From Lineus longissimus (Eukaryota; Nemertea; Pilidiophora; Heteronemertea; Lineidae): 64,000 nucleotides of DNA. Of the stretch, positions 9,451-64,000 are shown one piece after another; position 1 is the first letter of the stretch, and each line of letters begins with the position of its first letter. A model generated the notes under the pieces. It saw only the letters and a program-made list of their open reading frames with translations, was not told where the DNA came from and made no database searches. Made by a program: the position numbers and the translations under genes. Location: assembly GCF_910592395.1 (NCBI RefSeq), contig NC_088315.1, positions 18,945,219-19,009,218 on the forward strand, written 5' to 3'.

Positions 9451-9504
9451 TTTGGCTTTACGGGCTCTAAAAGAATTTTTAAATAAATGGTACATGTACG
9501 TCAC

Positions 9505-10935
9505 TAAACAAATTTAAACGCTTCCTCCAGTATAAAGTTATTTCCAAGCGAACTTAGGCGATCCAGTTTCGACTACAAGTCACGTGAACTGTTCATTATT
9601 TTGTAGACGATTTCTTGAGATAAGTGGTTTTGATGATGATGTGTCGACGCTATTTAGCCGGCTGTTGCACACGGCATATATCATTTAAGTTAGGCCTTTT
9701 GTACAGGTGCCCCTCAACCGCTCAATAGAGTCGACACAGTAGTTTTGACACGTTTATATCAAAAGTAGTTTGTTAGAACTTTTCACTTTCTCACACAAGG
9801 TGGATGCTATCATACGATGGTACTCTCTGATAATTTTTTTATCCTTCTTATTGACACAAATCCATAGAATGGATACTTCCTTCAAGGGGTTGAAGCACTA
9901 AGGAATGAGAAGACGAATATACAGCCACCAACTTCAACGGCCTGACCGCAAATTAGATCCAGATTCCAACGAGGCGATATGTCGTCCTTTTAGCCGGGAA
10001 ATCACGAAGAAATCTATCCATTTTATAAAAAAACTCAAAATAACTAAAAACGCGTTAAGATGCCGTATTGTATCACTCGAAGAGCCAAATTACTGTCTTT
10101 TATTTACATAATCATTTCAACTTAGAAATTGTATATATATATATAGATGGGTCCATAAAACTATCGGTAATCCACTCCTGCAATGTACAAGCATTTGATG
10201 AAAGTAATTTTGTTGCTTACTCCAACATGAAATGTATCACAACCTCAACTACGAAATATTCCAGACAATATCGTTTATTAAGATATAATCTGCACTTAAA
10301 TTCATAGCAATCTTTGTTGTAAATGCTCTGATTTCATTGCTCTAAGACCTGTTGTGAATATTCAATTCAAAGATAGATATCATGTACACATGATCGTTTG
10401 ATTCCATTCAAAATGTCCAATTTGGATAGATAATGGGTTGGTAACACCAAGCTGTCCGATGGTCATGACGTCATAGTCCTGCCTCGCCTTCGTTTCGATT
10501 TCCTAGTCACTAATGAAGTGGTCTTATATCAGAAGAACTAGAGTGTTACCATTACGTTTCTTTATGCAAATCCAATTGTTGCTTTTGATGAGCAAACTGT
10601 AGAAAGCAACATCTTTGCGCATTTAATTTTTGCTATTCGCAAAAATTTCAGAAAAAAAATTAAATTTCACGATCATTATTTTGGCGGCGGATAACGATAT
10701 TTCTTCCCGTTTTTCGTATTAAAAATTATTTTCGCGATTTTTATTTTCGCGAATCAAGATCCGCGAAAATTAAATGCTCGAGAAAATGTGGCGGTTTACA
10801 GTATTGTATAAATGTACAGTCTAATGTGTGGCCAAGGAGTGGTACAAAACCCTTTAATTTCACAAAACATGTTTATTCATATTCACGTAGGCTTACATTA
10901 AGTTTACTAGACAATAGGCACTTTTCAAATTTAAG
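9505..10935. other. Spacer between LRR and PEF genes; no gene recognised
   Basis: AT-rich spacer with short simple sequence (TATATATATATA at about 10133). Several short ORFs are present, but none has splice sites or recognisable protein character. The 10620-10800 part has a palindromic A/T-rich stretch with repeated TTTTCGCGAA-like motifs. Confidence 0.4.
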
Positions 10936-24434: not shown

Positions 24435-26949
24435 ATGTTGCAGTTCAGGTACACAACCTTCCTCGTCTTCCTAGCAGAAAAGGCCCTTCTCGCAAGAGAT
24501 CAGACGAAGCATGTGACGTCATTCTTGGCATGCGCAATAATGTGCATGCACATTGAGGATTGTCAAACATTTAACCCGATGTGGGACGGCGATGCATACA
24601 TGTGCCAAATAAGTCAAACACGAGTGAGTTGTATGAAGCAAGAGCGCGGTTACTTTGACTGCGAAAATAGCAAGATATACAAGAAAAAGGTACAGTATAG
24701 GCCTACATTATCATATCCCACTGCAACTTCTGAAAAGCTGACTATTAGCTTATAGTCACCTACACAACATGTATACTCTACATTATCATATCCCACTGCA
24801 ACATCTGAAAAGTTGACTATTAGCTTATAGTCACCTACACAACATGTATACTCTACAGTATCATATCCCACTGCAACATCTGAAAAGCTGACTATTAGCT
24901 TATAGTCACCTACACAACATGTATACTCTACATTATCATATCCCACTGCAACATCTGAAAAGCTGACTATAAGCTTATAGTCACCTACACAACATGTACA
25001 CTCTACATTATCATATTCCACTGCAACATCTGAAAAGCTGACTATTAGCGTATAGTCACCTACACAACATGTATACTCTACATTATCATATTCCACTGCA
25101 ACATCTGAAAAGCTGACTATTAGCGTATAGTCACCTACACAACATGTATACTCTACATTATCACATTCCACTGCAACATCTGAAAAGCTGACTATTAGCG
25201 TATAGTCACCTACACAACATGTATACTCTAAGCTCTTAGTCAAATCTGTCAGACTGGAGATGGGCCCTGAACACGTTGCACGCGGAGATGTCACGAAATC
25301 TGGCTGTGCGTGAACACCATCTTGATCACCGAGGTTTTGCATCTTATTAGGATTTTGGCATAAATTAAAATACAGGGACCCTTGAACCTGTTATCTGCTC
25401 TGGAACAATGCATTCCATACACAACAATAGACTGCTAATGTAATAGTCTTGCAAACATCTCCCGCTGGACTGGTAAAATTGATCCATAAACTGTACAACA
25501 TTTACCTTGTGGGGAATAACCCTGGGTCCTATATCTTTTTGCCTGGCCGAGAGAAGATCATAATCTCAAACTCTGCGAAGAATTTTTTTATCAGATGAAT
25601 AAGGAAGATTTGTCGTTGGAAACTTGGCCAATATGCATAGCTATTTCAGATTTGGCTGGGATGGGAATTTACATGTGGTACTGGCTGCCTGTGCACTGTC
25701 ACACAAAGTCTGGCCTGAAACTGAAATTAAACAAAAACCGAACACGACTACGGAATCAATCATGGGTACCCCGACTACGTTTAAAGGGAGTGTGATAAGA
25801 CCGTGAGGTTCAGGAGGCGTGTACAACGGCAGAGAGAGAAGGGGTCTTTTTATGTTCTCAAAATGTGCTGGTAAGTGGTGGAGGCAGGGAAGGGAATGAA
25901 GTTGTAGCTTAATAAACTTGAGCGTTATTCTTCATTATTCTCAGGATGTGATTTTGAATTTGAACTACCGGTTAAAACGTAAGTTTTCCGTCCTGCCACC
26001 AATTCGTTCAGAAAGGCACGGCCTCGTCACCATAAACGACCAACGCATTATATATTTTTACACTAACCATCCAATACCCTACAGTTACCTGATTACATAC
26101 CTAACCGACAACTCTAAACTGCAGTTCCGACTGGCCTACAATACGTCATTCTACCGGTCTAACATTTTTGGAGGTTCAATTTTTAAATCGTACATGATTT
26201 TCCTGAAGTACGGTCCAAAACCTTTTAAACTCATTCTCTTCGACTTTATAAAACGTAGGGTCACAAAAACCACAATACCAAAGTCCGAAAAATGCCTCTA
26301 CACATCCGCATGGTTCTCGGTTTTCGTAACTGTTCAGCAAAAGCTTGCCATCATTTGTGAAGTGCCGTATCAACGGTTATCTTTGACCATATATGATCAT
26401 GGTTTCATGAGGGATGCTAAGGAATGGCGTTGGTGGAACAAAAGGGTGATCATTCTTCGTACTGGATCAGCTGCCGGCAATGTCAGAGCTGGTGCTCAAA
26501 TTACCATCCGCTTCCTGTACAAGAATGACTTGGTTATGATGATGAACCATCGCAATAAATATACACACTTTAGAATATTCCTCGAGTCAAACGGCTACCG
26601 AGTGTCGGCGGAGAAGTACCAGTTGCCACGATTTATAACAAACCACTTCTGCGATTGTGGTATCAACACGTCTCGGCGTTTGTGTATGGTCCAATCTGAG
26701 TATAGAGTTATTGGCGCTCTGGAAATCAAACTTGAAAACAAATGCCGGAGAAAAGCCACTACAGATTTACAATACCGTATCCAAGTTTATCGTGTTACCA
26801 TGGGTCTTCGCGCCAGGGAACCCTGGGATTTGAATATGACTGTATTCATCCGCGAAAGCAAAGACTTGGTACATTTGGTGTCAGACCTGAATAAAACAGA
26901 AACTGTGCGGTTTGTCCATGTTTATTCAGTCAGTGATTCGACATTCTGA
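24435..26949 (+). CDS. PAN/apple-like exon joined to an orphan all-beta-like terminal exon
   Basis: A first coding exon (24435 or 24475 to 24689) ends in phase 0 before GTACAG. It encodes an apple/PAN-like half domain: SFLACAIMCMHIEDCQTFNP then YMCQISQTR, with the typical C...C...C-x-TFN...C spacing. A short phase 0-0 exon may follow at 25814-25870 (EACTTAEREGVFLCSQNVL). The terminal exon starts at 25945 after TTATTCTCAG, phase 0, and runs 335 codons to the stop at 26947-26949. This last part is one uninterrupted frame rich in alternating hydrophobic and charged residues with many V-x-V/I-x-Y strands; I do not recognise the family. PAN domains bind protein or carbohydrate outside the cell, which suggests an extracellular protein. 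The intron holds a 7 x 75-bp minisatellite. The join of the PAN exon to the terminal exon is inferred from phase. Confidence 0.6.
24706..25230. repeat. 75-bp minisatellite, 7 copies
   Basis: Unit starts CATTATCATATCCCACTGCA and ends CATGTATACTCTA; copies start at 24706, 24781, 24856, 24931, 25006, 25081 and 25156. Units differ by a few substitutions (TAGCTTATAG versus TAGCGTATAG). Because 75 is a multiple of 3, the minus strand stays open as a repeat of 25 residues. It starts 16 bases after the PAN exon donor. Confidence 0.95.
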
Positions 26950-27289: not shown

Positions 27290-27612
27290 TAGGGTAGGTT
27301 TCCACGGACGCGAGTTTGCTTGAATCGCACAGCGCGTGTGCCAATCGCAGAACCGAATCTTTTGTATGGGAGCTTGGGTGTGCAGTGGGGCCAGGCCATC
27401 GCGTGCGTTGTCACAATCGCACTCAGTGGAAATCTACCCGAAGGCGGGAGACTTAAAGTAGGTTCGCACTCAACGCGATTTCACTTGAATCGCACAGCGC
27501 GCGCGTAATCGCAGAGAACCAAATCATTTGTTTGGGCGCGTGGGTGTGCAGAGGCGTAAAGTTACAAGGCCATAACGCGAATGTTGTCACAATCGCATGC
27601 AGTGGCAACCTA
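27290..27612. mobile_element. Two tandem MITE copies with GTAGGTT...AACCTAC-type ends
   Basis: About 150 bp each (27290-27440 and 27462-27612). Both begin GGGTAGGTTTCCAC or GTAGGTTCGCACTC, share TTGAATCGCACAGCGCG and GTTGTCACAATCGCA, and end in a complementary GTGGAAATCTACC or GTGGCAACCTACCC. Confidence 0.65.
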
Positions 27613-27647
27613 CCCTTACAAGCAAATCTCTTTTGCTTTTGAAACAG

Positions 27648-28655
27648 GAGCGAAAATCAATGACTTTTAGATCAGAGGACGCGTATTTTAATCCTCCAAT
27701 TCGACTGTTGAAAATAGGATCAGATGATTTTGATTCGCTCTGGCAACCTGGGCTAATATTCGTGGGTTTACACACTGATGATGATCCACGGTATACAATG
27801 ATTGTTTATTCATATGATGAAGAGCACAATAAATTTCATATCGTTTCCAATGGAAAGTTTTACAAAAAAATTAGCGCTCTGTATTGGTTTTACGCATCCT
27901 GCATCATGATTGAGGCAGTGCACGATAGAGGGCGCGCTGTGGAATACTGGCTGTACAACATATGGACGAAAGAACTGACGAAAACGTTTTCATACACAGA
28001 CCCTTGTTCCTCTTATAATGGCTATGTCGTGAATGCAATGAAATTCGGCGATGGGGTCTGTAACATTTGCTGTGCACACAAATCGCCTCGGACGCGCGCC
28101 AGGAAAAACTATATCGTCGATGTTTATGTGAAAAATCCTGGTGGAACGGTCAACATAATACTAGTTAATGTCACCGTCATTCCATTAACAAGTGTCTGTG
28201 GTGGCACATTTATACGGGGAGGTGATATGATTGCGGTCGTGCAAACTAGCAGAGGAAAATCAAACTGCTTTTCGGCTGTTTTATACAGAAGAATTGACAA
28301 GTATAACAAACCCATTTACTATCCTTTACAAGAGCCAAGATGGATAAGTTTAGTTATTGCCTTATGGAACCGTTATGATGACTTCATTACTTTCTTATAC
28401 TTCGCGGGAAGCCGCCGAGCGATTAGAGAAGGGAGGCGGGGGTTTCTCAGGGGCGTCCGACTGGTCTGCTCGCAGGGGAAAGGTACGAAAGTATTTGAAC
28501 CCTTAAATATAAAACTTGTTAGAGGCTCAATCCAAAGGGAACACAAAAATGATTTTTCAATTACAAGGGATGGTAGGATACTCCTAATTATCAAGGATCA
28601 AGCTTATAGCAAAACCTATCGACCAAAATCAGTGAGAGTTTACAAGCGTTTATGA
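27648..28655 (+). CDS. Second terminal exon of the same orphan family (tandem paralogue or alternative 3' exon)
   Basis: Open for 335 codons from a phase-0 acceptor (CTTTTGAAACAG at 27636-27647) to the TGA at 28653-28655. It matches exon 25945-26949 along its whole length: GLIFVG.H versus GLVTIND, SNGKFYKKI versus NTSFYRSNI, WLYNIWTKELTKTF versus LILFDFIKRRVTKTT, FIRGGDMIAVV versus FLYKNDLVMMM, and a shared C-terminal V-x-VY. Identity is low, so the duplication is old, yet length and phase are kept and both are open, so both are probably functional. No PAN exon lies between them, so this may be spliced to the upstream exons as an alternative 3' end, or may be the last exon of a shorter gene. 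Confidence 0.6.
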   Translation, partial: ERKSMTFRSEDAYFNPPIRLLKIGSDDFDSLWQPGLIFVGLHTDDDPRYTMIVYSYDEEHNKFHIVSNGKFYKKISALYWFYASCIMIEAVHDRGRAVEYWLYNIWTKELTKTFSYTDPCSSYNGYVVNAMKFGDGVCNICCAHKSPRTRARKNYIVDVYVKNPGGTVNIILVNVTVIPLTSVCGGTFIRGGDMIAVVQTSRGKSNCFSAVLYRRIDKYNKPIYYPLQEPRWISLVIALWNRYDDFITFLYFAGSRRAIREGRRGFLRGVRLVCSQGKGTKVFEPLNIKLVRGSIQREHKNDFSITRDGRILLIIKDQAYSKTYRPKSVRVYKRL

Positions 28656-35542: not shown

Positions 35543-35624
35543 GGTAGCATGGCCGAGCGGTCTAAGGCGCTGGTTTAAGGCACCAGTCTCTTCGGAGGCG
35601 TGGGTTCGAATCCCACTGCTGCCA
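35543..35624 (+). tRNA. tRNA-Leu (anticodon AAG)
   Basis: 82 nt with all arms. The acceptor stem GGTAGCA pairs with TGCTGCC (one G-T). The A box is TGGCCGAGCGG. The anticodon stem CTGGT/ACCAG encloses loop TTAAGGC, giving AAG. The long variable arm (TCTCTTCGGAGGC-type) is typical of Leu tRNA. The T arm holds the B box GGTTCGAATCC. It has no intron and is followed by a T-rich tract. Confidence 0.95.
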
Positions 35625-39645: not shown

Positions 39646-40420
39646 TCCGGCGCACTGATAGTAGTGTGATGATGCGGCCCTACTGTATTACTGTATAATA
39701 TGCCCGAAAGTTATGTCTGCTTGGAGAATGAAAAACCACCTGGCAGAAAGGCAGGATCCAGTATGTGGTAGAGAAGAGCCTCAATGAATCAGCAGATTAC
39801 ACAAATTCTAACTGACTGTCTGCTTGGCAAAGCAGATTACCGGTATTTATGGAAGCGCAGGTCAGTTATAGTCAGTGTCAGAATAACATCACTCGGAAGG
39901 AACATGATCCATGGAATATGCAGCTGCACTGGTTATATTAGTAACTTTCTCCCGTTACTGGCTGTCATCAAAAATTTGCTTGGAGGTGAGGAGGTGGACC
40001 CGTTCATCATGAAATACCACCATACGGTCTTGCAGTGCTGGACACTTATAGATGTAACACCCGCTCATGAATATACGTCGATGTGTCATGCCGTCATCAA
40101 AGGGCAGGCCACGGTAACACCGAGGTGTTCCTTAAAACCTGGTTAAGTTTCACGTTGTTTTCCAGACTTCAATTAAAAGGAAACAAGTTATTAGTCTTCA
40201 TCACTTCCGTTCTTAATTTGAATCGAGAGTAGCTATTAGAGTAGTGGCTGCGAGACATTCCATCGCAATTGACTCGCTATTACTATAATCAGCAGTAGAT
40301 TACTGTTTAATCTGCTGCTGTTACTATTGCCCGAGAGCCAAGAAGTCTAATTATTTTATAAGTATGCGCATCTTTAGATGAGACATTTAAGGACCCCAAG
40401 ACAATGAATAATGAAGGGAA
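39646..40420. other. Spacer, no gene recognised
   Basis: A 120-codon plus-strand ORF at 39784-40146 has an ATG and a stop but no recognisable domain, signal peptide or convincing splice partner. I treat it as probably accidental. Confidence 0.35.
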
Positions 40421-41310
40421 GGCAGTCTCCTCCAACTCTAAGACTATAAATAGGCGACAGTCTCTCCAGGTCCCAGGTCAATACAAGTGAAGACAGGCTC
40501 CACCAACTCCCGAGTCTGTAAAAAAGGCAGTCTCCACCGACTCTAAGACTGCAAGAGTGGCGACAGTCTCTCCAGGTTCCAGGTCAGTACAAGTGAAGGC
40601 AGGCTCCACCAACTCCCGAGTCTGTAAAAAAGGCAGTCTCCACCGACTCTAAGACTGCAAGAGTGGCGACAGTCTCTCCAGGTTCCAGGTCAGTACAAGT
40701 GAAGGCAGGCTCCACCAACTCCCGAGTCTGTAAAAAAGGCAGTCTCCTCCAACTCTAAGACTGTAAAAAGGCGACAGTCTCTCCAGGTTCCAGGTCAGTA
40801 CAAGTGAAGACAGGCTCCACCAACTCCCGAGTCTGTAAAAAAGGCAGTCTCCTCCAACTCTAAGACTGTAAATAGGCGACAGTCTCTCCAGGTTCCAGGT
40901 CAGTACAAGTGAAGACAGGCTCCACCAACTCCCGAGTCTGTAAAAAAGGCAGTCTCCTCCAACTCTAAGACTGTAAATAGGCGACAGTCTCTCCAGGTCC
41001 CAGGTCAGTACAAGTGAAGACAGGCTCCACCAACTCCCGAGTCTGTAAAAAAGGCTGTCTCCTCCAACTCTAAGACTGTAAATAGGCGACAGTCTCTCCA
41101 GGTCCCAGGTCAGTACAAGTGAAGACAAGCTCCACCAACTCCCGAGTCTGTAAAAAAGGCAGTCTCCTCCAACTCTAAGACTGCAAGAGTGGCGACAGAG
41201 TCTCCAGGTCCCAGGTCAGTACAAGTGAAGACAAGCTCCACCAACTCCCGAGTCTGTAAAAAAGGCAGTCTCCTCCAACTCTAAGACTGCAAAAGTGACG
41301 ACAGTCTCTT
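40420..41310. repeat. 105-bp minisatellite, about 8.5 copies, with degenerate tail to about 41890
   Basis: Unit contains CAGTCTCCTCCAACTCTAAG, GGCGACAGTCTCTCCAGGT and ACCAACTCCCGAGTCTGTAA. Successive AGTCTCCTCC starts such as 40741 and 40846 are 105 bp apart. Beyond 41310, shorter degenerate GACAGTCTCCTCCAAC modules continue. The 105-bp period keeps one minus-strand frame open (35-residue repeats). Confidence 0.95.
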
Positions 41311-42446
41311 CAGTGGTGACAGTTTCTTCAGCTCCTAAAGCAGTACGACCGAGGACAGTCTCCTCCCACTTCCGAGAAAGTAAAAAGAAGACGTTATCCT
41401 CCCAACTCTCTCTACAGCTCCGAATACAATACAAGTGAAGAAAGTCCCCTCCAACTCTTCGTTAGACAAGTGAGGACAGTCTCCTCCAACCCCCAGAGAC
41501 GGTGAAGACAGTTACATCCAACTCTCATGACTGTGAAGAGTTAACTCCTGCTGCCAAAAATGTGTGCACAAGGATAGCTTGAAGCCTCCTCTGGTTACCA
41601 AGAATGCAAAATGAGGACAGCCTACAACATCCAGCTTTCAAGACTGAAAGTTAACGGACTGCCTCCCCTTGCTCCGAGGACTGCAGATATGAGGACAGCC
41701 TCTTTGCAAGAACAAATGTGAGAACAGCCACGTATAGATAGCCCTGAAGACATTAAGAGTAATGATGGCGCGTCCTCAATGAGACAATCTCCTTCAGAAT
41801 GTGCCAAGTAGAAATCCATTCGGGAGACAATCTTCAGGATGTGCCAAGTCTCCTACAGGATGTGCCAACAAGGACAGGATGTGCCTTCCTTCATTTCTCA
41901 CCTTTCTGCTGAGGGGTGGACCAAAGTCAACAAAATACTAAAGCCAAACTACTTATATTGCAAATGAAACAACTGGAGTATTTAATTCATCAATTCTTAT
42001 ATTTACAAAACATTACATGAGGTTATACTTTATGCAGCACTGGTGAATGTCCAAAAATATTTTTATTCTCCCAATGTTAATTTCAAATGGGCAAAGGGCA
42101 ATGGGTTGTGGACATGTCAATGTCAATGAGCCCCCCCCCCCCCCCCCCCACACCACAAACTCCTTTCCAATGTAAGATCTGGGGTTTCATGAAAACATTC
42201 GAGGACACCCTGTACACATATGGGAAGCACCTTGGCTGGGAGGCAACCGATGGTTACCAAGGCAACAAACAACATCTGGAGTTATGAAGGGAAATATTTC
42301 AATCATTAAATCTTTATTCCAATACTGAATTCTTTCAAACTCCTTATACAAAATGCAAGTACGTGTACTAATTTCAGATTGTAGTTATCAATTTATAAAT
42401 CTATTCTCAAAACCTATGTAAATCTTTTGCTTAGTTACAAGCAATT

Positions 42447-42560
42447 TCCATAATGGCAACCAATCTCAATAATGGCAACCAATCTCAATAATGGCAACCA
42501 ATCTCAATATTGGCAACCAATCTCAATAATGGCAACCAATCTTAATAATGGCAACCAAAC
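42447..42560. repeat. 19-bp tandem repeat, about 6 copies
   Basis: Unit AATGGCAACCAATCTCAAT. It directly abuts the 21-bp array to its right. A run of C at about 42130-42149 lies upstream. Confidence 0.9.
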
Positions 42561-42896
42561 TCTGAATTCACCATGGTAAACTCTGAATTCACCATGGTAA
42601 ACTCTGAATTTACCATGGTAAACTCTGAATTCACCATGATAAACTCTGAATTCACCATAGTAAACTCTGAATTCACCATGCTAAACTCTGAATTCACCAT
42701 GGCAAACTCTAAATTCACCATGGTAAACTCTGAATTCACCATGGTAAACTCTGAATTCACCATGGTAAACCCTGAATTCACCATGGTAAACCCTGAATTC
42801 ACCACGGTAAACCCTGAATTCACCACGGTAAACCCTGAATTCACCACGGTAAACCCTGAATTCACCACGGTAAACCCTGAATTCACCATGGTAAAC
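42553..42896. repeat. 21-bp tandem repeat, about 16 copies
   Basis: Unit GAATTCACCATGGTAAACTC plus T. Most units hold GAATTC and CCATGG palindromes. The right half has CC for CT (AACCCTGAATTC) and CACGG for CATGG, showing block-wise homogenisation. The period is a multiple of 3, so both strands stay open (7-residue repeats); these ORFs are not taken as genes. Confidence 0.95.
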
Positions 42897-43679: not shown

Positions 43680-44195
43680 TGGGGCCTTTGCCCTTTTGAT
43701 CACTTCCTTTTTGGTGTCATGGGCCAGACTAGGGCCTTTGCCCTTTGGATCACTTCCTTTTTGGTGTCATGGGCCAGACTAGGGCCTTTGCCCTTTGGAT
43801 CACTTCCTTTTTGGTGTCATGGGCCAGACTAGGACCTTTGCCCTTTGGATCACTTCCTTTTTGGTGTCATGGGCCAGACTAGGGCCTTTGCCCTTTGGAT
43901 CACTTCCTTTTTGGTGTCATGGGCCAGACTAGGGCCTTTGCCCTTTGGATCACTTCCTTTTTGGTGTCATGGGCCAGACTAGGGCCTTTGCCCTTTTGAT
44001 CACTTCCTTTTTGGTGTCATGGGCCAGACTAGGGCCTTTGCCCTTTTGATCACTTCCTTTTTGGTGTCATGGGCCAGACTAGGGCCTTTGCCCTTTGGAT
44101 CACTTCCTTTTTGGTGTCATGGGCCAGACTAGGGCCTTTGCCCTTTTGATCACTTCCTTTTTGGTATCATGGGCCACACTAGGGTCTTTGCCATT
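43680..44195. repeat. 50-bp minisatellite, about 10 copies
   Basis: Unit AGGGCCTTTGCCCTTTGGAT, CACTTCCTTTTTGGTGTCAT, GGGCCAGACT. Units are nearly identical apart from TTGGAT/TTTGAT; the last two units are more diverged. Confidence 0.95.
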
Positions 44196-45059
44196 TCGAT
44201 CATTTCTTTTTCGGTATCCGTAATAATGGAGGTCTGGAGCGCGTGAGAGGTAAGAACTTGGATCGCTGGTATGGATCATGGTGGCCTTGCGTCATCATCA
44301 GAGATATCTTGGTCGGTGATGTGAGCTCTGAAAACAACAAAATACAATTTTAGATGAAAACACATCAAAATATCACAAATCAGTCTAAATCTTTGGTATG
44401 TCAGGAAGAAGTTTGGTAAATTTTCACAGCCCACGAAAAAATTTAACTTCATGGAGTATTTGAATGGTGAGATCAAGACCCTTAAACTGCTTCACGTAAC
44501 CCTTCACGCAGAGGGATGTTCATATCATGCCTACGGAAACTAATTTTAGCTCAGCTGGTTTCAAAATCAATGCTCCGCAAGAAGCGAGGGGAGTCTACTG
44601 ACCTTGGGGTGTACGCGGGCCTTTGGATGAGCGAGCACGCACTTGACGCAAGGGACTCTGCAATGAGATTCAGAACAAATAAACAAGGCCATTTAGACTG
44701 GCATTATTCGGAATCAATCAGGTTTCTTTCGAAGTAAGGATGAACTACATGTAAATGGGCTCTTTCATAATCTATGGAGTGTTCACACTAAAACTAGAAG
44801 TGGAAGAAACCTAGGAGGTGAAAATTGGCTAGGAGGAGTTCCAAGTGAAAGAACTTGATACTCACTTAACTTGAGTTTTTGTGGAAAGGGAGTTTATAGG
44901 CAGAAGACATGTCAGGCCTGAAGGCCAGATTAAGTTCTGCAAATCGCTGATAGGTGCCTTCATTTCCCTTACTGTTCATGCAGGCCAAAGTGTCTCTGCA
45001 TGGATCTATGATGGTGATTAATCATCAATGTTCCATCAATGGGCCATCCATTGAGAATC

Positions 45060-45475
45060 CCCCTCATAGATCTATGGATGGAACCCATGGTCATATCAAC
45101 CATGGGCCCATCATTGATCTATGGATGGAACCCATGGTCATATCAACCATGGGCCCATAATTGATCCATGGATGGAACCCATGGTCGTATCAACCATGGG
45201 TCCATCATTGATCCATGGATGGAACCCATGGTCATATCAACCATGGGCCCATAATTGATCCATGGATGGAACCCATGGTCATATCAACCATGGGCCCATC
45301 ATTGATCCATGGATGAAACCCATGGTCATATCAACCATGGGCCCATAATTGATCAATGGATGGAACCCATGGTCATATCAACCATGAGCCCATAATTCAT
45401 TAATTGATCCATGGATGGAACCCATGGTCATATTAACCATGGGCCCATCATTGATCCATGGATGGAATCCATTAC
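45060..45475. repeat. 47-bp minisatellite, about 9 copies
   Basis: Unit GATCCATGGATGGAACCCAT, GGTCATATCAACCATGGGCC, CATAATT. Each unit has three overlapping palindromic stretches (ATCCATGGAT, CCATGG, CATGGGCCCAT). Confidence 0.95.
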
Positions 45476-49040: not shown

Positions 49041-49627
49041 TGCCTTACCAACACCCCAGAGGAATTTGTCCTAGTTCTGACTCCTTGGTTGAACTGCCAA
49101 TGCAAAGGAGGCCAAATTCAAGATGGCTGCCAAGGTGGCCATATTGAATGTGGGATCACTGCTGCATTGTCAAATGTTGCTTGAGTCACCAAAGGTGTAG
49201 GCATCATGTGACAGTGTGGGAAATTTGAATTTGAAAAACCGGCTTGCAGGCTGAAAGAATCACTGTCAATAGTGGTTTGGCGATGTACAATCTTCAAATT
49301 TCAGGAGTGACATACCTCACAAACAGTCACATGCAGTGGATTGGTGAATTTCACAAAATAATACTCCCAAGGTATTTCTCTGCAAAATTAAACGGCCATT
49401 TAGTCAAATTTAAAAATTATCTAATGGTTATTTGAGTGCCTGGGTATTAAAACTGCTAAATTAATGAATCTGTTTACACAAATGCATGCAATTAACAATT
49501 TTAGGGTAAAACAGATAATTAGAAAACAACATTTTGTCAGACCATCACCATGTTATCATTGTTACGAGCACCAGTCTTCTTGGATTGCAGATAGCATCCA
49601 TCACCAGTTCTTGCCACTCTCGTCCAA

Positions 49628-50095
49628 TAGACAGACAGAGCCCATAGATAGACAGAGCCTATAGATAGACAGAGCCCAAAGATAGACAGAGTCCATAGAT
49701 AGACAGAGCCCATAGATAAACAGAGCTCATAGTTAGAGAGAGTCCATAGATAGATAGAGCCCAAAGATAGACAGAGCCCATAGATAGACTGAGTCCATAG
49801 ATAGACAGAGCCCATAGATAAACAGAGCTCATAGTTAGACAGAGTCCATAGATAGATAGAGCCCATAGAGCGACGGAGCCCATAGATAGACACAAATTTA
49901 GACAGAGCCCATAAAAAGACTGAGCCCATTTATAGACCGAGTCCATAGATAGACAGAGCCCATAGATAGACAGAGTCCATAGATAGACATAGCCAATAGA
50001 GCGACGGAGCCCATAGATAGACACAAATTTAGACAGAGCCCATAAAAAGACTGAGCCTATTTATAGACCGAGTCCATAGATTGACAGAGCCACAA
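49628..50095. repeat. 18-bp-based minisatellite with higher-order units
   Basis: Basic unit TAGATAGACAGAGCCCAT with variants (TAGTTAGACAGAGTCCAT, ATAAACAGAGCT, GAGCGACGGAGCCC). A block of roughly 130 bp recurs (GAGCGACGGAGCCCATAGAT ... TTTATAGACCGAGTCCATAG), so a higher-order repeat exists. Confidence 0.9.
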
Positions 50096-50381: not shown

Positions 50382-50479
50382 AGGAGCTTGTCGCTAATTC
50401 CCAAGGGTTCTCAGTGCAAAACAAGTTTTCAGTTCTGCTGCAACATTCAAGGAACTTAAAACGAACAAAGTTCATATCA

Positions 50480-51193
50480 ATAATGGCATCGGTGCTACAC
50501 TCAACTATTTCATATCAATAATGGTATCGGTGCTACACTCAACTATTTCATATCAATAATGGTAACGGTGCTACACTCAACTATTTCATATCAATAATGG
50601 TATCGATGCTACACTCAACTATTTCATATCAATAATGGTATCGGTGCTACACTCAACTATTTCATATCAATGATGGTATCGGTGCTACACTCAACTATTT
50701 CATATCAATAATGGTATCGGTGCTACACTCAACTATTTCATATCAATAATGGTATCGGTGCTACACTCAACTATTTCATATCAATAATGGTATCGGTGCT
50801 ACACTCAACTATTTCATATCAATAATGGTATCGGTGCTACACTCAACTATTTCTTATCAATAATGTTATCGGTGCTACACTCAACTATTTCATATCAATA
50901 ATGGTATCGGTGCTACACTCAACTATTTCATATCAATAATGGTATCGGTGCTACACTCAACTATTTCATATCAATAATGGTATTGGTGCTACACTCAACT
51001 ATTTCATATCAATAATGGTATCGGTGCTACACTCAACTATTTCATATCAATAATGGTATCGGTGCTACACTCAACTATTTCATATCAATAATGGTATCGG
51101 TGCTACACTCAACTATTTCATATCAATAATGGTATCGGTGCTACACTCAACTATTTCAAATCAATAATGGTATCGGTGCTACACTCAACTGAG
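50480..51193. repeat. 38-bp minisatellite, about 19 copies
   Basis: Unit TATCAATAATGGTATCGGTG + CTACACTCAACTATTTCA. Units are nearly identical over more than 700 bp, with single-base variants (GGTAACGGTG, GTTATCGG, TCAAATC), so it is young or strongly homogenised. Confidence 0.97.
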
Positions 51194-54719: not shown

Positions 54720-55976
54720 CTGCAAAATAAACGAGAAAGAATTCGGAAAAAAATACTTTCAAATGCAAGATTATATTCTGAGGCGAAGTTACAACTCTAG
54801 TTTCACTGATATAAGACAAAGGAATGTCAAAATGGTATCATCATACACCAAAATTCATGACCAGGGTGCTTTAAGAAATCTACAGAATGTTTTTTGCAGA
54901 AAATTTCAGAACTACTTCAGGGATATGACTAATGATGTAACCGGTGGACAAACAGGGGATTAGTAGCTATTGGGTTAAATCAGGGCATATTTAGAATCTT
55001 TAGATTTTTGAATTTTTTTAAATGGTCAAATTGTGAACCTAAAATGGTGCAAAATGTCATCCAAGTTTGAGCATTCAACAAACTGAGTGTGAACTGAACA
55101 TAACGGCCCAAAACATGAAGGAGATTTGTTGGTGACGTGCCGAGCACGTCATGCTTCATGTCCTCTCATGTGCGTATGACGTGCATGATACGTCATATAA
55201 AAATAAAGTATCAATTTCCTTAGAAAAAAGGTCTCCAATCATGGAAATCAACAGTGCATTGCAGGGCCCAGTTGCTCAGACCGTTTTAGAGGTATAACCT
55301 AGTTTAAGCTCAATTAAGCGTTATTTTCTACAGAAAATTTCATTTACAATAGTAGCGTTAAGATTTAACGCCCACAATATCGCTAACGCTGACTGGGCAG
55401 CCGGGTCCTGGATTCCCCACAACGCAAAACCAAAATTTCAGTGAAGTTGAATCCACACTTTCCTACCCTTGGCAGACATCATCTGTGCGTTGTAAGGAGA
55501 AAGTGATGGGTCCTAACTAACCTGAAAACGTCAAATTTGTGATGGTGAAATTGTCATTCATGCTTGCACACTAAGTGAGATTGATATCGTGGCGTTGTGA
55601 ATTTAGATGTAGCCTTGAGTAAACAGTGTTCTCCAACTCATTGGAAATTTCACAGTTTGACTTCGTGGGGCAGCATACCTTCTTTTATTTTGAGAAGAAG
55701 TCAGCTCCAACAAGCCTCAAACATGATTTTAGTGCACTCTAGATGCATTTCAAATGCTTTCTAGGGGCTAAAAAGCATTAAAGGGAAGGACCGGTGGTTT
55801 TTTACCATGCAATTATTGCTTGTATTTGATGCTTTGTACAGTAAACAACTCTCTCAAACACTTCGCCCCTTGTTTATCAAATTATTTTAACCCAAATAAC
55901 GGGACTTTAGACACTGCAAAACTGGCTGAAAACATCGTCTGCTAAGAGTGAGACTGCAGCGCCACCATCGGACAAG

Positions 55977-55984
55977 TGACGTCA
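55977..55984. promoter_or_regulatory. TGACGTCA palindrome in left subterminal repeat
   Basis: CRE/ATF-type palindrome 116 bases before the transposase ATG, mirrored at the right end. It is likely part of the transposase promoter, a transposase-binding site, or both. Confidence 0.45.
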
Positions 55985-56099
55985 CGGCATGTATCCATTG
56001 TATCCAGAGCGTCCATTTTATGTTAACAAAGCAGTGATATTGATATCTGGGTCGCGACAATTTTGCTATTGTGTGCCGATATTCTATTCAAAATCGTGA

Positions 56100-59000
56100 A
56101 TGCAGGAGTTTAGTGAGAGGCCGAAGAGGCAGAGGAGAGATGGGGGAACTCGCTGTGCCGCTTGGGGCTGCGATAAATCGAAATTAAAGGATGGTGTTGG
56201 AGTGTTCGAGTTTCCTGCCCGTGAGAAGTCGCCGGAAAGATTCGATTTTTGGTGCAAAGCAGTTCGGAGGACTCGCCAGGATTTCAAGTTCGTCAAAGGC
56301 ACATCACGGCTTTGTGGCGACCATTTCGATCGGGACCAAATCGATAACTGGATGCAAATCAGGATTATGTTGGAGGATAAGGGTCTAGAGGCGGCTCGAA
56401 AAATCTCGTGGAGGTTAGTGCCCAAGGCCAAGCCAAATCCGGACCTCTTCCCCAAAAGGCCAACCCATGGCACCCCTAGTCCTAACGTTAGGCCTTCTGT
56501 TTCTTCCTCTTCCTTCGCCGGTGGTTCAACCCCAAGACGACCCCCAACTTCTAGACCTTGGGCAACCAAAAAAGACAGGAGAAAGGTACGTGCATCATCA
56601 TACATTATTCTATATTTCATTGTATTTATTTCATGATTTAGTCTAGTTCGCCAACTTTAACTTACTTTAACTTAGCATAGCTCTAGCAATAGCATAGCCT
56701 AGCTAGGCCTAGGCCCTAGCCTACTACTTGTACTTAGACTAAAGTCATTGTCAGACAAGTAAACACACGTCATGTGAGTGTGTGGAATGGGAGGAGGGGG
56801 GGGGGGGGGGGGATATTTGCATTATCCCCAACCATTGAGTGTGAAATGTATTAGAATTTATGTATGGGAAAAATATAGGCAACTAACCCTAACCCTTACC
56901 CATATTGGGGGGATAATGCAGTTGAGTTAAGCCAATAAATTTATTATTTATGACCTTACCCCTGATAAAAATATTGTTCCATTTCAGAGGGTCAAAGAAG
57001 CCATGGAAGTATTACTTCCAAGTTCTGGAATTACTGAGTCAGCTGATTCCACTACAGCACCATCATCACCAGTACCAGGGCCATCATCATGTGAGGCAGA
57101 CTCAGAGGCGATGGAGATAGAATGCAATGATACAAACATGACAAAGTTGGTAAGAAACATGGCCATCCCACTCATTTCTTTTTTTCCCGAGAGTTGTCTC
57201 AATCAAATACTGCCATCATCACACATTGACATCACTTTCAGGAAAAGAATGATATCAAGTAATTGCAGTCTGACATTTGTCTGATTGGTGTCAATAACAG
57301 CTATACTTGAATTTGTGGAGCATTGTTGTCATGTCATGTTCAGTGCAGTACACATCATGTAGGCCAGCACATGGTATATTTTGTGTCTGAAATGATATTC
57401 CTCATTCTAATCTCAAATTTTTGTATTTCAGCCAGAGCTTGTGGATCAATACGTGCAGACTAAGAGAACGTCTTATCGTTCCTTTCACGTACAAGTTATG
57501 CCAAACACTTTTTCACAAGGTAATTTTAAGATTTCTTTGCAATATATGAAACATGCACAATGGATGAAAAAAATCTTGCCCCTCCAAAACCACAGCTGAG
57601 CTGTAAGTGTAAAGTCTTTGTAAATTTCATGAATTCACAAGTGGTTAATATACATGTATTTGCCAATCACAATGTCAATTATCTGGGTTTTTTTGTTATA
57701 ATCAATTCCTGTGGAGGTTGTTGTCATAACTGAAGCAGTTAAGTGCCAATCCGCTGTGCACAGTGAACTGAGTTAATCTTGGGATTTAGTACTAGCAAAG
57801 CAACTGTCTTGGACAACATGGACATGAGGATGTATGGACATGAGGATGTATTCTGGTATAGATGGTGCAATTCTTCAATTATGGCATTATGCATGTAGGC
57901 TTAATATAATGTTGCCCCTGTGTTTTCAGGAACTCAAACTGATACATGTAAATGTATGTGCAATTGTCCCCAGGGCTGTGACTTGCCAGATCCACCACTG
58001 GAGCCAGATGTTTGTAGTGGTACTGCCATGCCTGTTGAAACTGATGACGACTCGGTCATCGAGACAGAGGATGAAATGCATGATTCTGTTGATCCAGATT
58101 ATGAACCAAATTCAGCTGATGAATCTGATGATTGTGATGAAAGGGAATTCGAAGATTGGCAGAATGAAGTAAAGTAAGTGCTGCTGACTAATTCCTTTGA
58201 AAGTTAAGAATAATAACAAAGATTTCATGTTGAACTAAAGCAAATGGGTTTTCTCAGATTCTACTACTGAACAGCTACATGTATTTTGTTTTGGCAGGAA
58301 TACCAGATTGAGGACGATTTTGTTTCAGATGTGCTAGTATCAAATTGTCAGTTGTCTGTTTGTCCTTCATGTGTTGTAATTTTCATTTCCAGCAAAGACC
58401 CAGTCTCGGAGGAAAAGTATTTCGTTTTTCATTCTTGTCTGATGACTTTGTTTGCATCATGTCCAGTGTGTTCATCAGAATCATCGGGGCATATCAAAAG
58501 GATTGGAACTTTCATATCGATTGAGCAGCACTGCAGTAACAGTCAATGTGGATTTTCACGGTACGGTATAGTTTTCATTTGAGTCAAATAAGCCTATTTT
58601 TATGTCTCTTCATATGGACTGATAATTATCATTTCCTCATTACTGGTACATAAGCATTGTGGATTAAAATATTATTCGAGGAGTGATATTCCATTGTATA
58701 TGCATTGTAAGGTCATTTCTTCTTCCAGGGTTTGGCACAGCCAACCGATGTGTGGCAAGGTACCAGCAGGGAACATCCTCTTGTCAGGTTCCATACTGTT
58801 TTCGGGCAGCATACCAGCCAAAATTCTTCGTTTTCTAAAGTTGTTTGGTTGCCAGGCCTTCTCCAGGACAACGTACTTTAATCACCAGCGCATGTACCTT
58901 AGCCCAGCCGTGACAGAAGTATGGAGCAAAGAACAACATGCACTACTAGTTGACGTTAAGGAGAGTGATGCCCCTCTTGTCGTTGGTGGTGATGGCAGGT

Positions 59001-61506
59001 CGGATACACCTGGCCATTCAGCCAAGTATGGATCGTATTCCCTCATGGACCTTGACAATAAAAAGATCATAGCCATGGAGCTTGTCCAAGTAAGTTTTTT
59101 TCACCTCTATACCAAGTTATTATTGATATTGAAAAGTTTTTCTGTGGTTTTCCTCACAAACAATGAGAAACAAGGCATTAGGGCTGTTTGTAAATACTTT
59201 TGAGCCAGTGGTCTCAAGTAAATTAAAACCTTGCCTAAATAAGTAGAACTCACAGAAGTCGAATTTTGCCAAAGTCAAAGAAAAATCATAGGTCCAAAAC
59301 ATGGCACATGAAAGTTGTATTTACCGGTACCATGACATTTCCATTCCAGAGTACAGAGGTCAAATCTTCAGTTCATATGGAGAAAGAAGGGCTGATCCGC
59401 TGTGTACGCATCCTTGATGAAAATGATGTATCGATTAACAAGATAATCACTGACAGACATTGTCAAATACAGAAATGGCTCAGAGAAAACCTTGGGGGAA
59501 CTTCACATTTCTTTGATGCATGGCATCTTGCCAAAAGTAAGTACATGAAGCCTACATGTTTTCATACGGATGTAAAAAAATTAAATCACTAAATATTGAT
59601 TTCAGGCCACTCTACAATAATCTTTCACCTCCTGCACGGAGTGCTTAATGAAATTCCATCTCAGCTTGTAGGCCTATTGTATATGTAGACATTGTCAAAT
59701 ATTGTTTACCAGTACATGTAATGTGCATATACTGCTAGTGCTAGCCCTCGATTGTGTGAATCCATGACTTGGTACTTGGGTGTCATATGAATGTCTTATT
59801 TCCTTCTTGAGTTCAGCAAAAGACATGCAGAATTGTTCATTCAATCAATGGTTAATTGGGATTACTTTTTTCCAGATGTGAAGAAGAAGGTTCTGAAAAT
59901 TGCGAAGCTGAAAGGGTGCGAAATAGCTGCGGAGTGGTGTAAGGCCATCACCAACCACCTCTATTATGTGGCATCGAACACCCCTGAGGGTCAATCTGAT
60001 CTGATAATTGCCAAATGGAAGTCATTGGATAATCACCTTCACAACATCCACAAAGGTCATGGCAACCTGTTCCCCAAGTGTGGCCACGGTAGACTTCGAA
60101 AGCGACGACGCAACAGCAAAAAGTGGCTTACTGCAGGTATTGTATTTTAATGAATATTTTCCTGGGGGGGGGGGGGGGGGGGGTTCCATGTTATGGTAAG
60201 AGCAAACTTGTGAATTGTTCATGCTGTATGGGTAAGTTTTGTTTTCATTTTCAGGAACAAGGGTGTCCAATGAATTGACCAAAATCATCACTGCCCCAAG
60301 ATTAGTCAAAGATATTGGAAAGATATCCTGTAGTCAACAAACATCCGGAATTGAGGCGTTTCACAGTGTGGTGAACCATTTCGCACCAAAACAGATCCAT
60401 TTCTTCCCTGATGGCATGGAAAGCAGGTAGGACAGTTTTTGAATCATTTAAATAATCAGTGCAGTGATGCTGAACAGTTGGGCAGTGCATGGGGGTGCAA
60501 TAATGAAAACTGATATCCCCTAGCTACTGAATTCAATCTTCATGTACATGTTTACCAGTACGTACTTAACTTTAAACTTATTTTGTTGACATGAATGGCA
60601 CTATAACTATTATTGGCTTTAAGATGCCTATGGTTCACGAGTGGTCAATATGTTTGTTCCAGTGTACTTTCAATGCCACATACTGTAAATGCTCAAGTAA
60701 GCCAGCCAGCCACTGCCCAGTCACTGGCTTACTTCAGCTGTTACAGGCCTACGCTGTCACAGGCCTACGATGCATTTTCATTTTTTTTCTGTTTGATTTC
60801 AGACTATGTATTGCTGCCTTACATTATAATGAAAATGGCAAGAAGGAGCAGGCAGTCAACAAAGATGGGAAGGAGAGGTGGGACGTCTTCTTTCCAAAAG
60901 TGAAGAAGGGGGGTCATTCTGTTCGACCAGTGAGGAAAGAGAGCACATATGGTAAGTTCATGTACTTAACTCTGATCAGACCCATTACCACTCAAACAGT
61001 CCCAGCACTGCTATTAAACATAATTCTCCACAATAAAATACTGTGCTGTCATCTACAAGTGTCATGAATGTACAGAGTGTCAATGACTCTCACCAGAGTT
61101 TCAAGTAGGTACCCAAAGGAAGGGTCATTATAGACAGGAGCTGATACACCCCTTACCCCTCTTGCAATGATTGCTTACTTTTCCACATTATGAATTATTT
61201 CTTGCATGATTTTTCAAAGGAGCGAACATATTAGACTTCAGATTGAAAAAGAATTACTTTTGTTTCAGTATTATGAAAACTTTAATATTATTATTATTTA
61301 AACATATTTCTTTACATAAATTACAATGTCTATTTTTAGGCTATGCAAAGAGACTGATGGATGAAGCTCATCATAGATGTAAGAACAGCATGAAGATTAC
61401 AAACAAACGAAAACATGACTTTCTGAGTAGCAAATATGTACATCCTGATAAACGTGAAGCAGTAGAAGGCTACTTGGCGAGGTACAAGCGTTTCAAGAAA
61501 TTATAA
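56100..61506 (+). CDS. THAP-domain DDE transposase (Kolobok type), 11 exons
   Basis: Exons 56100-56585, 56988-57149, 57432-57519, 57930-58173, 58393-58560, 58729-59089, 59350-59536, 59876-60136, 60255-60426, 60803-60951 and 61340-61506 join in phase to 2445 nt, 814 aa, no internal stop. An N-terminal THAP zinc finger has C19-x4-C24 ... C72-x2-H75 (RCAAWGCDKSK ... SRLCGDHF), the sequence-specific DNA binding module. A Ser/Pro-rich linker follows, then a Cys cluster (DTCKCMCNCPQGCD), an acidic stretch, and CPVC...C-x4-C. The RNase-H-like catalytic core has GGDGRSDTPGHSAKYGSYSL (first Asp about 471), IITDRHCQIQKWL (second Asp about 538) followed by HFFDAWHLAK, and SGIEAFHSVV (Glu about 686). Introns are short with canonical GT-AG. 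It cuts and pastes DNA at the element ends. Its stop is 29 bases from that of the convergent gene. Confidence 0.9.
56796..56813. repeat. G homopolymer in first transposase intron
   Basis: Uninterrupted G run after GGGAGGAG; a similar run lies at about 60164-60183 in a later intron. Confidence 0.8.
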
Positions 61507-61535
61507 AGACCAGTCTGTTTGAACATTGAACAGTG

Positions 61536-63051
61536 TCACTGACTATTATTCCGCCTTTTTCTCTTAGTGCCTTTGTTCTTGAGTGGTGGATACTTAAAGC
61601 CCACAATTTCGCCTTCTGGAGGAAAAGTCTTACGGATTAAATGAACAGCACAGGCTGGTAATGGCACACGATTCCCTTCTCCAAGATATCTCCAACACCA
61701 TCGGATTAGTTGCCGATATGCAACATATCTGTATTTCCTGAAATGAAGAAATGGATTCTGTCATAGATGGCATAATTCAGGCCTGCGTGTACTGGTCAGA
61801 GCTGGTAAGGCTTGAATTCTAATGGAGCAGAAAATATGCTTGACCATTAGATAAAAATTATCTTTGTGGTTTAAAAAGGTTTACTGGTACAATGATACAC
61901 AACAAATTTGATGCCATATTGTTCTTCTTTTGTAAAAGTGTACACACTAATACAGTGAATAATTATAATTTAATAAAAAAATAAAAATAGAAGAAGTCTT
62001 CTTACAAGTTTATTGCTCCTGGCACTTCCTTCTTATGAAAGAGCCTGTATGCAAGCTGCAGGGACCAGACATCGAGGCAATTGCTGTGGAAAGCAGGATG
62101 GTCCGTTATGCATGCGATCTCTGGCTTGAAGTCACAGTTGTACTCCTCGAGTACTCCATCAATTGGGGCCTTCTCCCGGCAGCAGGCATTCTCCTCTGGT
62201 ATCAGTGAGTTAACACATTTCTTGTCACATTCGCACCTAAAAAATAATGAACATAATTATAATGTGTGTGGAGTGATGATTAGATTTTTTGAGGAAATAA
62301 CATTTGATAGAAACAACCACAACCAACCAACTCGCTATGCAACTTAATATGCAACTTAATATGCCACAGACTATATATCGCCAGAGACTGTAAATACAAC
62401 GACCTTTTATAAGGGTTTCTCGATTCTAGCGGGAGGAATTCACGAACGAACCACTACCAGTGGTCTATCATTATTCACATCCTGAGGTATTAAACATTGT
62501 TACTTAAACAGGACTAAGACATAGGCCCTATATAGTAGCTACAGTCAATATTGACTTCCCAACACTGACTGGAGATGAGTGCATTCACCTGTCATGCATG
62601 TAGTAGTTGTGTATATTTTTAGTGCGTCCATGTATGTAATGTAGGCTAGTGGATTTGTACATTGGGTGAACTGGTATCTTTGAACATGTTTAATTATGGC
62701 CAAATTCGACAATGATTCAACGAAAGATTTGAGAAACGATGACTGGCAACCCAGGACATTGAAAGGAAAAACTAATTACCATTTCGTTGTGGTCATTCGT
62801 TCCCTCCACTTGGCCATATTTGCGTCTTCCTCCGCGGATTCTGAAGACGAATTTGAAGAAAATTCAGAACTGCCATCTTCATCGCCGTGCGGCTCGAATT
62901 GGTATCCTTTCACCGCCCCACCGGCACCAATCTGTTCTTCGAACTCTTCCTCGTCAAGATCAATAGATTCGGAGTCCCTACTCTCATCGCTATCGTTGAA
63001 ATTATCGCTTATATCGGACAGACTTGAAGAATCATCACTCGAAGCCATCAT
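61536..63051 (-). CDS. P2X7-ballast-domain-like zinc protein carried by the transposon, 3 exons
   Basis: Exons 62780-63051, 62006-62236 and 61536-61737 join in phase to 705 nt, 234 aa. The first ~90 residues are acidic, Ser/Asp/Glu-rich (SDDSSSLSDISDNFNDSDES), with GYQFEPHGDEDGSSEF. The domain follows from W91: WCECDKKC, then ENACCREK, then CITDHPAFHSNC, then KYRYVAYRQLIRWCWRYLG and VPLPACAVHLIRKTFP ... GEIVGF. The order W-C-x-C-x3-C / C-C-x-E/K / C-I-T / A-Y-R / P-x-C / R-I-R-K-x-F-P / G-F is that of the cytosolic ballast domain of P2X7, where these Cys bind zinc. There are no transmembrane segments, so it is a free intracellular protein. Start choice: two Met in a row at 63051 and 63048; an in-frame Met further up at 63129 is less likely as it lies in the terminal repeat. 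Role unknown; it may assist transposition or bind nucleic acid or nucleotides. Confidence 0.85.
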
Positions 63052-63095
63052 TTTGCGTGGATCTGAACAGCTGATCGTAAATTGTATACATGCCG

Positions 63096-63103
63096 TGACG
63101 TCA
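63096..63103. promoter_or_regulatory. TGACGTCA palindrome in right subterminal repeat
   Basis: Mirror of the left site, 45 bases before the ATG of the ballast-domain gene, so each convergent gene has the same motif at its 5' end. Confidence 0.45.
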
Positions 63104-63394
63104 CGTACGTGTGGTGGCGCTGATGTCAAGTTTTTAGCAGACGACGAATTAAACCAAATTCAAGCCAAACAAATCGTAGAATTGTGATCAAATTAACAGT
63201 GCATTTCGATTAAAATGAATTGAAATTGATTTTTAAGACCCCAAAGCATATTTATTCATGAAGTTGTGGGTGAGGATTTGTCCTTCCCTTTAAGGTTAGT
63301 TTTAATAAGCTTTTTTACCACAAATCTTGAGCTATAGACAAAATCATTACTAGATTTTGACTTGTTGCCAGAATATTTCGACTTTAAGGCCCTG

Positions 63395-64000
63395 TTTGAA
63401 ATTTGACTTGGTTAGATCAAAATTTGACTTGGTAAGATCAAAATTTGACTTGGTCAGATCAAAATTTGACTTGGTCAGATCAAAATTTGACTTGGTCAGA
63501 TCAAAATTTGACTTGGTTAGATCAAAATTTGACTTGGTAAGATCAAAATTTGACTTGGTTAGATCAAAATTTGACTTGGTTAGATCAAAATTTGACTTGG
63601 TAAGATCAAAATTTGACTTGGTCAGATCAAAATTTGACTTGGTTAGATCAAAATTTGACTTGGTCAGATCAAAATTTGACTTGGTTAGATCAAAATTTGA
63701 CTTGGTTAGATCAAAATTTGACTTGCTTTGATCAAAATTTGACTTGCTTTGATCAAAATTTGACTTGGTTAGATCAAAATTTGACTTGGTTAGATCAAAA
63801 TTTGACTTGGTGGGATCAGACTTGACCTGGTCAGATCAAAATTTGACTTGGTTAGATCAAAATTTGACTTGGTCAGATCAAAATTTGACTTGGTTAGATC
63901 AAAATTTGACTTGGTCAGATCAAAATTTGACTTGGTTAGATCAAAATTTGACTTGGTGGGATCAGACTTTGACTTGCTTAGATCAAAATTTGACTTGGTG
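63395..64000. repeat. 21-bp satellite, about 29 copies, continuing past the window end
   Basis: Unit AAAATTTGACTTGGTTAGAT + C, with variants at one position block (GGTTAGATC, GGTCAGATC, GGTAAGATC, GCTTTGATC, GGTGGGATC). It begins about 100 bp right of the transposon end. Confidence 0.97.

Follow-up and report, generated by a model that had tools for sequence, protein, structure and literature searches.

Does the ballast-domain gene that lies beside a transposase gene in the bootlace worm Lineus longissimus, a nemertean, belong to a mobile element, and what might its product do there? We analysed a 64,000-nt stretch of this genome (NC_088315.1, positions 18,945,219-19,009,218 of the forward strand), henceforth referred to as the window, in which an earlier note had proposed a TTAA-flanked DNA transposon with a second gene for the ballast domain of the P2X7 receptor. 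The note had called the origin of this domain a puzzle and suggested that it may have reached the receptor by capture of a Kolobok-type element. That view of the origin agrees with Rump et al. 2020 (PMC7016195), passages of which describe stand-alone ballast proteins as ordinary animal genes and report conserved synteny of such genes (two marker genes; their Figure 6), but the origin has been less of a puzzle since 2022. According to passages of Kojima and Bao 2022 (PMC9587614), KolX of Kol0 Kolobok elements is clearly similar to P2X7 476-595, the association of ballast and Kolobok is found in other animals, stand-alone ballast proteins had gone unnoticed as Kolobok components, and P2X7 is the product of a fusion between a P2X4-like gene and KolX. 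Because KolX and the fusion were published there, the central claim was already known. Beyond that paper, we found no literature on KolX and Kolobok, Kolobok in nemertea or the P2X7 ballast as a domesticated transposon, and among the matches listed from 2023 on there was no P2X7 or ballast domain paper with Kolobok.

The element in the window is real and well preserved, and its explanation in outline dates from 2022. What our analysis adds is the nemertean case, a PYxFEP-type motif, a codon-splitting intron, mirrored gene starts with TGACGTCA and the similar divergence of the two genes; in the passages of Kojima and Bao 2022 and Rump et al. that we drew on, we found no description of the motif, the intron or the mirrored starts.

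Boundaries and gene content of the element

The element spans positions 55782-63289 and has inverted ends and a TTAA target-site copy on both sides (55778-55781 on the left, paired with 63290-63293 on the right). The left terminal inverted repeat (AGGGAAGGAC; 55782-55791, plus strand) begins with two purines and is matched by the right one (63280-63289, minus strand) at 10 out of 10 positions, or 14 identical columns including TTAA. Both the termini (AG... and ...CT, i.e., 5'-RR and YY-3') and the TTAA target-site duplication are as the Kolobok superfamily (Kol0 lineage) requires.

The transposase gene (56100-61506, plus strand) has 11 predicted exons and an unbroken predicted frame of 814 residues. 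Exon 1 (56100-56585, plus strand) encodes a THAP domain (residues 19-90; Pfam THAP E 6.9e-8), and exons 6-9 (58729-60426, plus strand) encode the DDE core with the motifs GGDGRSD, ITDRH, DAWH (DxxH) and IEAFH, which recur in the consensus of 24 transposase relatives and which, as read by eye, correspond to the DDD/E transposase with C/DxxH of the Kolobok superfamily. The Kol0 lineage is also marked by a zinc finger between DxxH and the last E and by the lack of a CCHC finger after the first D; by eye we noted a CGHG with histidines close by, and saw no CCHC in the stretch from the first D to the second. The predicted model of a transposase relative at 95% (LOC135489542) resembles the ISCth4, Hermes and P element transposases (Foldseek).

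The second gene runs on the minus strand, in agreement with the three-exon gene convergent to the transposase that the earlier note had described, and predicted splicing agrees with its extent (61536-63051). Exon 1 (62780-63051, minus strand) encodes an acidic, serine-rich N-terminus with the motif GYQFEP and is followed by an intron that splits a ballast tryptophan codon; exon 2 (62006-62236, minus strand) encodes the first half of the ballast (WCEC, CC, CIT), and exon 3 (61536-61737, minus strand; stop codon at 61536-61538) its second half (RYVAYR, IRKTFP) and a basic tail, KNKGTKRKRRNNSQ. Only 29 bp (61507-61535) separate the two stop codons, and at loci L031, L032, L033, L035, L037, L040 and L041 the two protein matches stop 35-44 bp from each other; because these convergent ends lie so close, the two transcripts probably overlap at their 3' ends.

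Judged by its sequence features (TTAA, RR/YY termini, DDD/E and DxxH motifs, KolX), the element is in all likelihood a full-length Kol0-type Kolobok. It shares TTAA, 5'-RR, DDD/E with DxxH and a P2X7-like KolX with the Kol0 elements as given in passages of Kojima and Bao 2022, from which it differs in its nemertean host, and the minus-strand gene at 61536-63051 is almost certainly its KolX accessory gene. We rejected KolobokP, a group with long terminal direct repeats, since its second gene encodes a His-Me finger nuclease and the one here a ballast protein (Pfam); our repeat search in the window covered inverted repeats.

Elsewhere in the window, a 21-bp tandem array (63399-63999; 28.7 copies, AAATTTGACTTGGTTAGATCA) begins roughly 100 bp past the right element end and reaches the window end, and minisatellite arrays with units of 17-105 bp occupy 24703-25230, 40419-41313, 42557-42896, 43682-44215, 45060-45472, 49627-50091 and 50471-51190. 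Two neighbouring plus-strand open frames of about 350 residues (25900-26949 and 27576-28655) had no Pfam match above cut-off, and a tRNA-Leu gene with anticodon AAG lies at 35543-35624 (ARAGORN; tRNA by Rfam).

The ballast domain of KolX

KolX is predicted to fold as a P2X7 ballast domain. Its ballast is recognised by Pfam (E 6.5e-11), it matches the C-terminal ballast of P2X7 (PDB 6u9v, 8trb, 9e3m) by sequence and by predicted structure over about 120 residues, and it has the zinc-type cysteines. P2RX7_C was the sole Pfam match up to E 1, with no P2X channel part found in KolX, and apart from P2X7 the predicted structure had no PDB match with E below 1 (Foldseek). The ballast cysteine and aromatic pattern without a channel, as the earlier note had put it, was thus borne out, and the comparison of a predicted structure with the P2X7 C-terminus, which it had proposed, gave a match.

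Unlike P2X7, KolX has no channel, carries an acidic N-terminus with a PYxFEP-type motif and keeps only part of the nucleotide site. Passages of Rump et al. 2020 (PMC7016195), and likewise of a 2023 eLife paper, state that the P2X7 ballast binds guanine nucleotide, the former naming R546, H547, R574, R578 and K583 as GDP contacts of the rat protein. In the alignment, KolX of the window keeps two of these five (R546 and R578) and not H547, R574 and K583; passages of the 2023 paper name two more contacts, of which L569 is conserved in KolX of the window and A567 is replaced by Val. The 60 aligned rows contain near-invariant arginines and cysteines; Arg171 (rat R546) and Tyr175 (Y550) are kept in all 60 and Arg203 (rat R578) in 49. 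In being short and having the ballast at its C-terminus, KolX is like nanor and other ZCD proteins, which passages of Rump et al. 2020 describe as host genes, whereas KolX lies inside a mobile element.

Genome copies and pairing of the two genes

The copy on C17 aligns in two pieces (99.72% and 99.45% identity) with no codon difference in KolX. Between the pieces lies a segment of roughly 297 bases, within intron 5 of the transposase gene, that is present in the C17, C6 and C12 copies and absent from the window copy (at 58684/58685). As the ends of this segment are not inverted repeats, we rejected it as a small transposon, and a deletion in the window copy is likely. The C6 copy carries more insertions, and the right end of the C12 copy lies outside the stretch fetched. 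We found TTAA with different flanks at the left ends of the C17, C12 and C6 copies and at the right ends of those on C17 and C6, which, with the TTAA copies and inverted ends in the window, bears out the TTAA-flanked transposon.

We fetched 20 loci, chosen among the best matches and in some cases with windows placed assuming a convergent layout, and 19 of them had transposase and ballast matches in convergent order. Two (L042 and L036) have only the last part of the transposase beside the ballast, and L034, which has an internal deletion, is fragmentary and gave no match to the transposase. To remove the selection bias of these loci, we made a count from positions only. Scoring the best 150 of 245 candidates in the ballast genome search gave 150 matches at 131 loci, and two transposase queries (best 150 of 463 and best 125 of 580 candidates) gave 121 loci. 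Among the matches listed, 70 of the 131 ballast loci had a transposase match within 10 kb, compared with chance means of 1.7 (maximum 6) for uniform placement and 3.0 (maximum 8) for shifts of 50-500 kb (500 runs). As many as 68 of the 70 pairs were convergent (transposase on the 3' side, opposite strand); the other two were on the same strand, one of them belonging to a nested neighbour. With the first transposase query alone, 56 of 131 ballast loci were paired among the matches listed, 54 of them convergently. The unpaired remainder among the matches listed (61 of 131 ballast and 52 of 121 transposase loci) is likely too high, because it depends on those matches and on two queries, and is not explained away in full; a remnant of the transposase is present in at least one of these ballast loci (L042), and solo copies of either gene may exist. 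Other copies of the element (those on C17, C6 and C12) thus carry the same second gene, which the earlier note had named as a check, and together with the 68 convergent pairs and the domain matches this supports its view of the ballast domain as an accessory protein carried by a Kolobok-type element.

One C6 site (C6:7829900-7844700, covering L033 and L036) is probably a nested insertion: only 236 bp separate the end of a window-family copy (C6:7830769-7841504) from the last transposase exon and KolX gene of a diverged element, and the 65-83% matches at C6:7822688-7823967 may represent the remaining transposase exons of that diverged element. At L042, two long frames (61-1494 and 8363-9788), retroelement gag/protease-like by eye, flank the diverged Kolobok copy.

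Divergence and selection

Transposase and KolX show similar divergence. Relative to the window, their dN values (transposase/KolX) were 0.21/0.23 (L035), 0.29/0.28 (L037), 0.32/0.34 (L038), 0.30/0.33 (L040), 0.30/0.29 (L041), 0.41/0.45 (L047) and 0.41/0.57 (L050), the last being an exception whose KolX value rests on 83 codons; these seven loci are not independent families, because L037-L041 are alike, as are L047 and L050. The transposase piece at L036 belongs to another element and was left out of the pairs. For KolX, dN/dS was 0.09-0.31 in eight diverged comparisons (L036 included); in near-identical copies with few changes it was 0.32 (L032) and 0.69 (L033), and it was undefined for C17. 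Given that dS is near saturation and that our codon filter (local identity of at least 40%) favours conserved stretches and lowers dN, we take the sign of dN/dS and not its value.

Relatives in other animals

A four-sequence profile search gave 126 KolX relatives, of which the best 120 are listed, from nemerteans, cnidarians, molluscs, echinoderms, a hemichordate, amphioxus, fish, arthropods, a brachiopod and an annelid. Some clusters at 90% are large (P0017, P0019 and P0090, with 13, 15 and 23 members), as expected of a mobile gene. NCBI gene numbers usually run along an assembly, and by eye we found four cases among the 24 transposase relatives in which transposase and ballast relatives have adjoining or near-adjoining numbers (Lineus 135489542/135489543 and 135493644/135493646, Ylistrum 132563537/132563538, Lytechinus 129278312/129278314). 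Since that order is only usual, this is a hint and not proof of neighbourhood, and the pair 135489542/135489543 probably joins two different elements at the nested C6 site. Scans of viral and prokaryote contigs, each with a single short peptide pattern and with 7 and 8 stretches inspected, yielded no KolX relative, which is weak evidence against ballast genes outside animals.

We built a tree from 37 of the 120 listed relatives, hand-picked by named taxon, and two rodent P2X7 rows. In it, P2X7 pairs with a single tick sequence (99/90), and the branch leading there is 2.98 changes per column long; this grouping is likely due to long-branch attraction. Because this branch is too long for trusted placement, we make no claim on the origin of P2X7 from the tree. 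The capture by P2X7 that the earlier note had suggested is in print, in passages of Kojima and Bao 2022, but the step from element to receptor is unsupported by our tree. Elsewhere in the tree, KolX of the shrimp Penaeus indicus (P0008) falls inside the nemertean clade (100/99 for the clade) and anchovy KolX groups with sea urchins (97/95); horizontal transfer or contamination are possible explanations.

N-terminal motif, intron position and mirrored gene starts

In KolX proteins a PYxFEP-type motif starts 28-50 residues ahead of the ballast. After exclusion of 70 of the 120 relatives, in which the N-terminus or a recognisable start is missing, it was present in 44 (loose) or 34 (strict) of 50 proteins, compared with 1.7 and 0.01 in shuffles; a text search of the literature for PYQFEP returned no paper. 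The codon split by the window intron is the first of the ballast (TG|G). Among 18 distinct ballast starts in the fetched loci, several of them near-identical copies, 16 have AG|G, the splice outside the window being inferred; of the remaining two, one is a start that had been counted before and was misread here, and one has CAT for CAG. With such an intron, the ballast would be an exon module of its own, able to be acquired separately from the PYxFEP motif.

The two gene starts mirror each other, in that a subterminal block with TGACGTCA is common to both ends and lies ahead of each start codon (55923-56002, plus strand, 5' of the transposase start, octamer at 55977; inverted copy at 63078-63156, minus strand, 5' of the KolX start, octamer at 63096). 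This octamer, which we take to be a CREB/ATF-type site, was found at most 300 bp before 11 of 13 placed transposase starts (compared with 3.9% of random 300-bp windows) and at most 70 bp before 8 of 13 placeable KolX starts (6 of 19 were not placeable), in loci that are not independent but form roughly five families, L038-L041 being without it.

Possible roles of KolX

Taken jointly, these observations make it probable that KolX is a Kol0-type accessory gene whose product has the ballast fold and serves as a zinc-bound partner of the transposase, with a possible pocket for a nucleotide or transposon end. In such a scheme, both genes would be driven from mirrored promoters at the two element ends, and KolX would meet the element's own THAP-DDE transposase, possibly via the conserved PYxFEP-type motif. 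While the element is excised or joined, its pocket (Arg171, Tyr175) would accommodate either a guanine nucleotide or the purine-rich end of the transposon, a role that falls to the built-in GTP-binding domain in the P element transposase. According to passages of PMC7776569, that transposase (THAP-DDE; 6pe2) needs GTP to place its transposon end, GTP being required in transposition of this type for end pairing and strand transfer; like it, the element's transposase appears to combine THAP with an RNase H-like core, but unlike its built-in domain KolX would be a separate protein, with no listed fold match for its predicted model. The Foldseek search with KolX listed no P element chain, so that the GTP parallel is an analogy; the P element GTP-binding domain, tried as a fold relative, had no match in that list, which does not exclude one. 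A nucleotide step is favoured by Arg171 and Tyr175 in 60 of 60 rows and by the listed Foldseek match between the transposase model and the P element transposase, and disfavoured by the three rat GDP contacts absent in the window. We found no paper on GTP use by Kolobok (literature judged by title and start of abstract). By analogy, we can only tentatively suggest that KolX gives its transposase a guanine-nucleotide step, and we regard it as unlikely that KolX would be a guanine-nucleotide cofactor subunit in trans, with the GDP/GTP and zinc site of P2X7 a relic of a transposition cofactor site.

Other explanations would not need a nucleotide, or even a transposition partner. KolX could be a DNA-binding or end-protecting protein that grips the transposon ends by its basic tail and zinc domain, with no nucleotide cofactor, as the tail in exon 3 and the near-invariant arginines and cysteines suggest; however, the close relatives P0004 and P0005 end soon after the ballast and lack the tail, and with no PDB match of E below 1 except P2X7 nothing points to a known DNA-binding fold, so that we consider this role possible but doubtful. 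A regulator or host-facing protein (e.g., a nuclear factor changing transcription of the element or of host-defence genes) seems rather improbable to us: the acidic, serine-rich N-terminus with its short conserved motif, the mirrored starts with TGACGTCA and the proposal that zebrafish nanor acts in transcription (passages of Rump et al., PMC7016195) are all consistent with it, but KolX stays with the transposase at similar divergence in several families, which fits a transposition partner at least equally well. That a nanor-like host ballast gene was enclosed by chance by an unrelated transposon is highly improbable, even though stand-alone ballast proteins have been described as ordinary animal genes (passages of PMC7016195), since the same gene in the C17, C6 and C12 copies with different flanks contradicts it; the single layout of 68 of the 70 paired loci among the matches listed and the association published for other animals (passages of PMC9587614) also argue against it.

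Implications

We found nothing in print on the function of KolX. With a complete gene pair and near-identical genomic copies, this function is testable with a natural element. Some invertebrate gene models named 'P2X purinoceptor 7-like' are likely transposon genes. For the P2X7 ballast, passages of the 2023 eLife paper call the functions of its GTP/GDP and zinc sites unknown, and the role of KolX in a transposon would be a direct lead to them.
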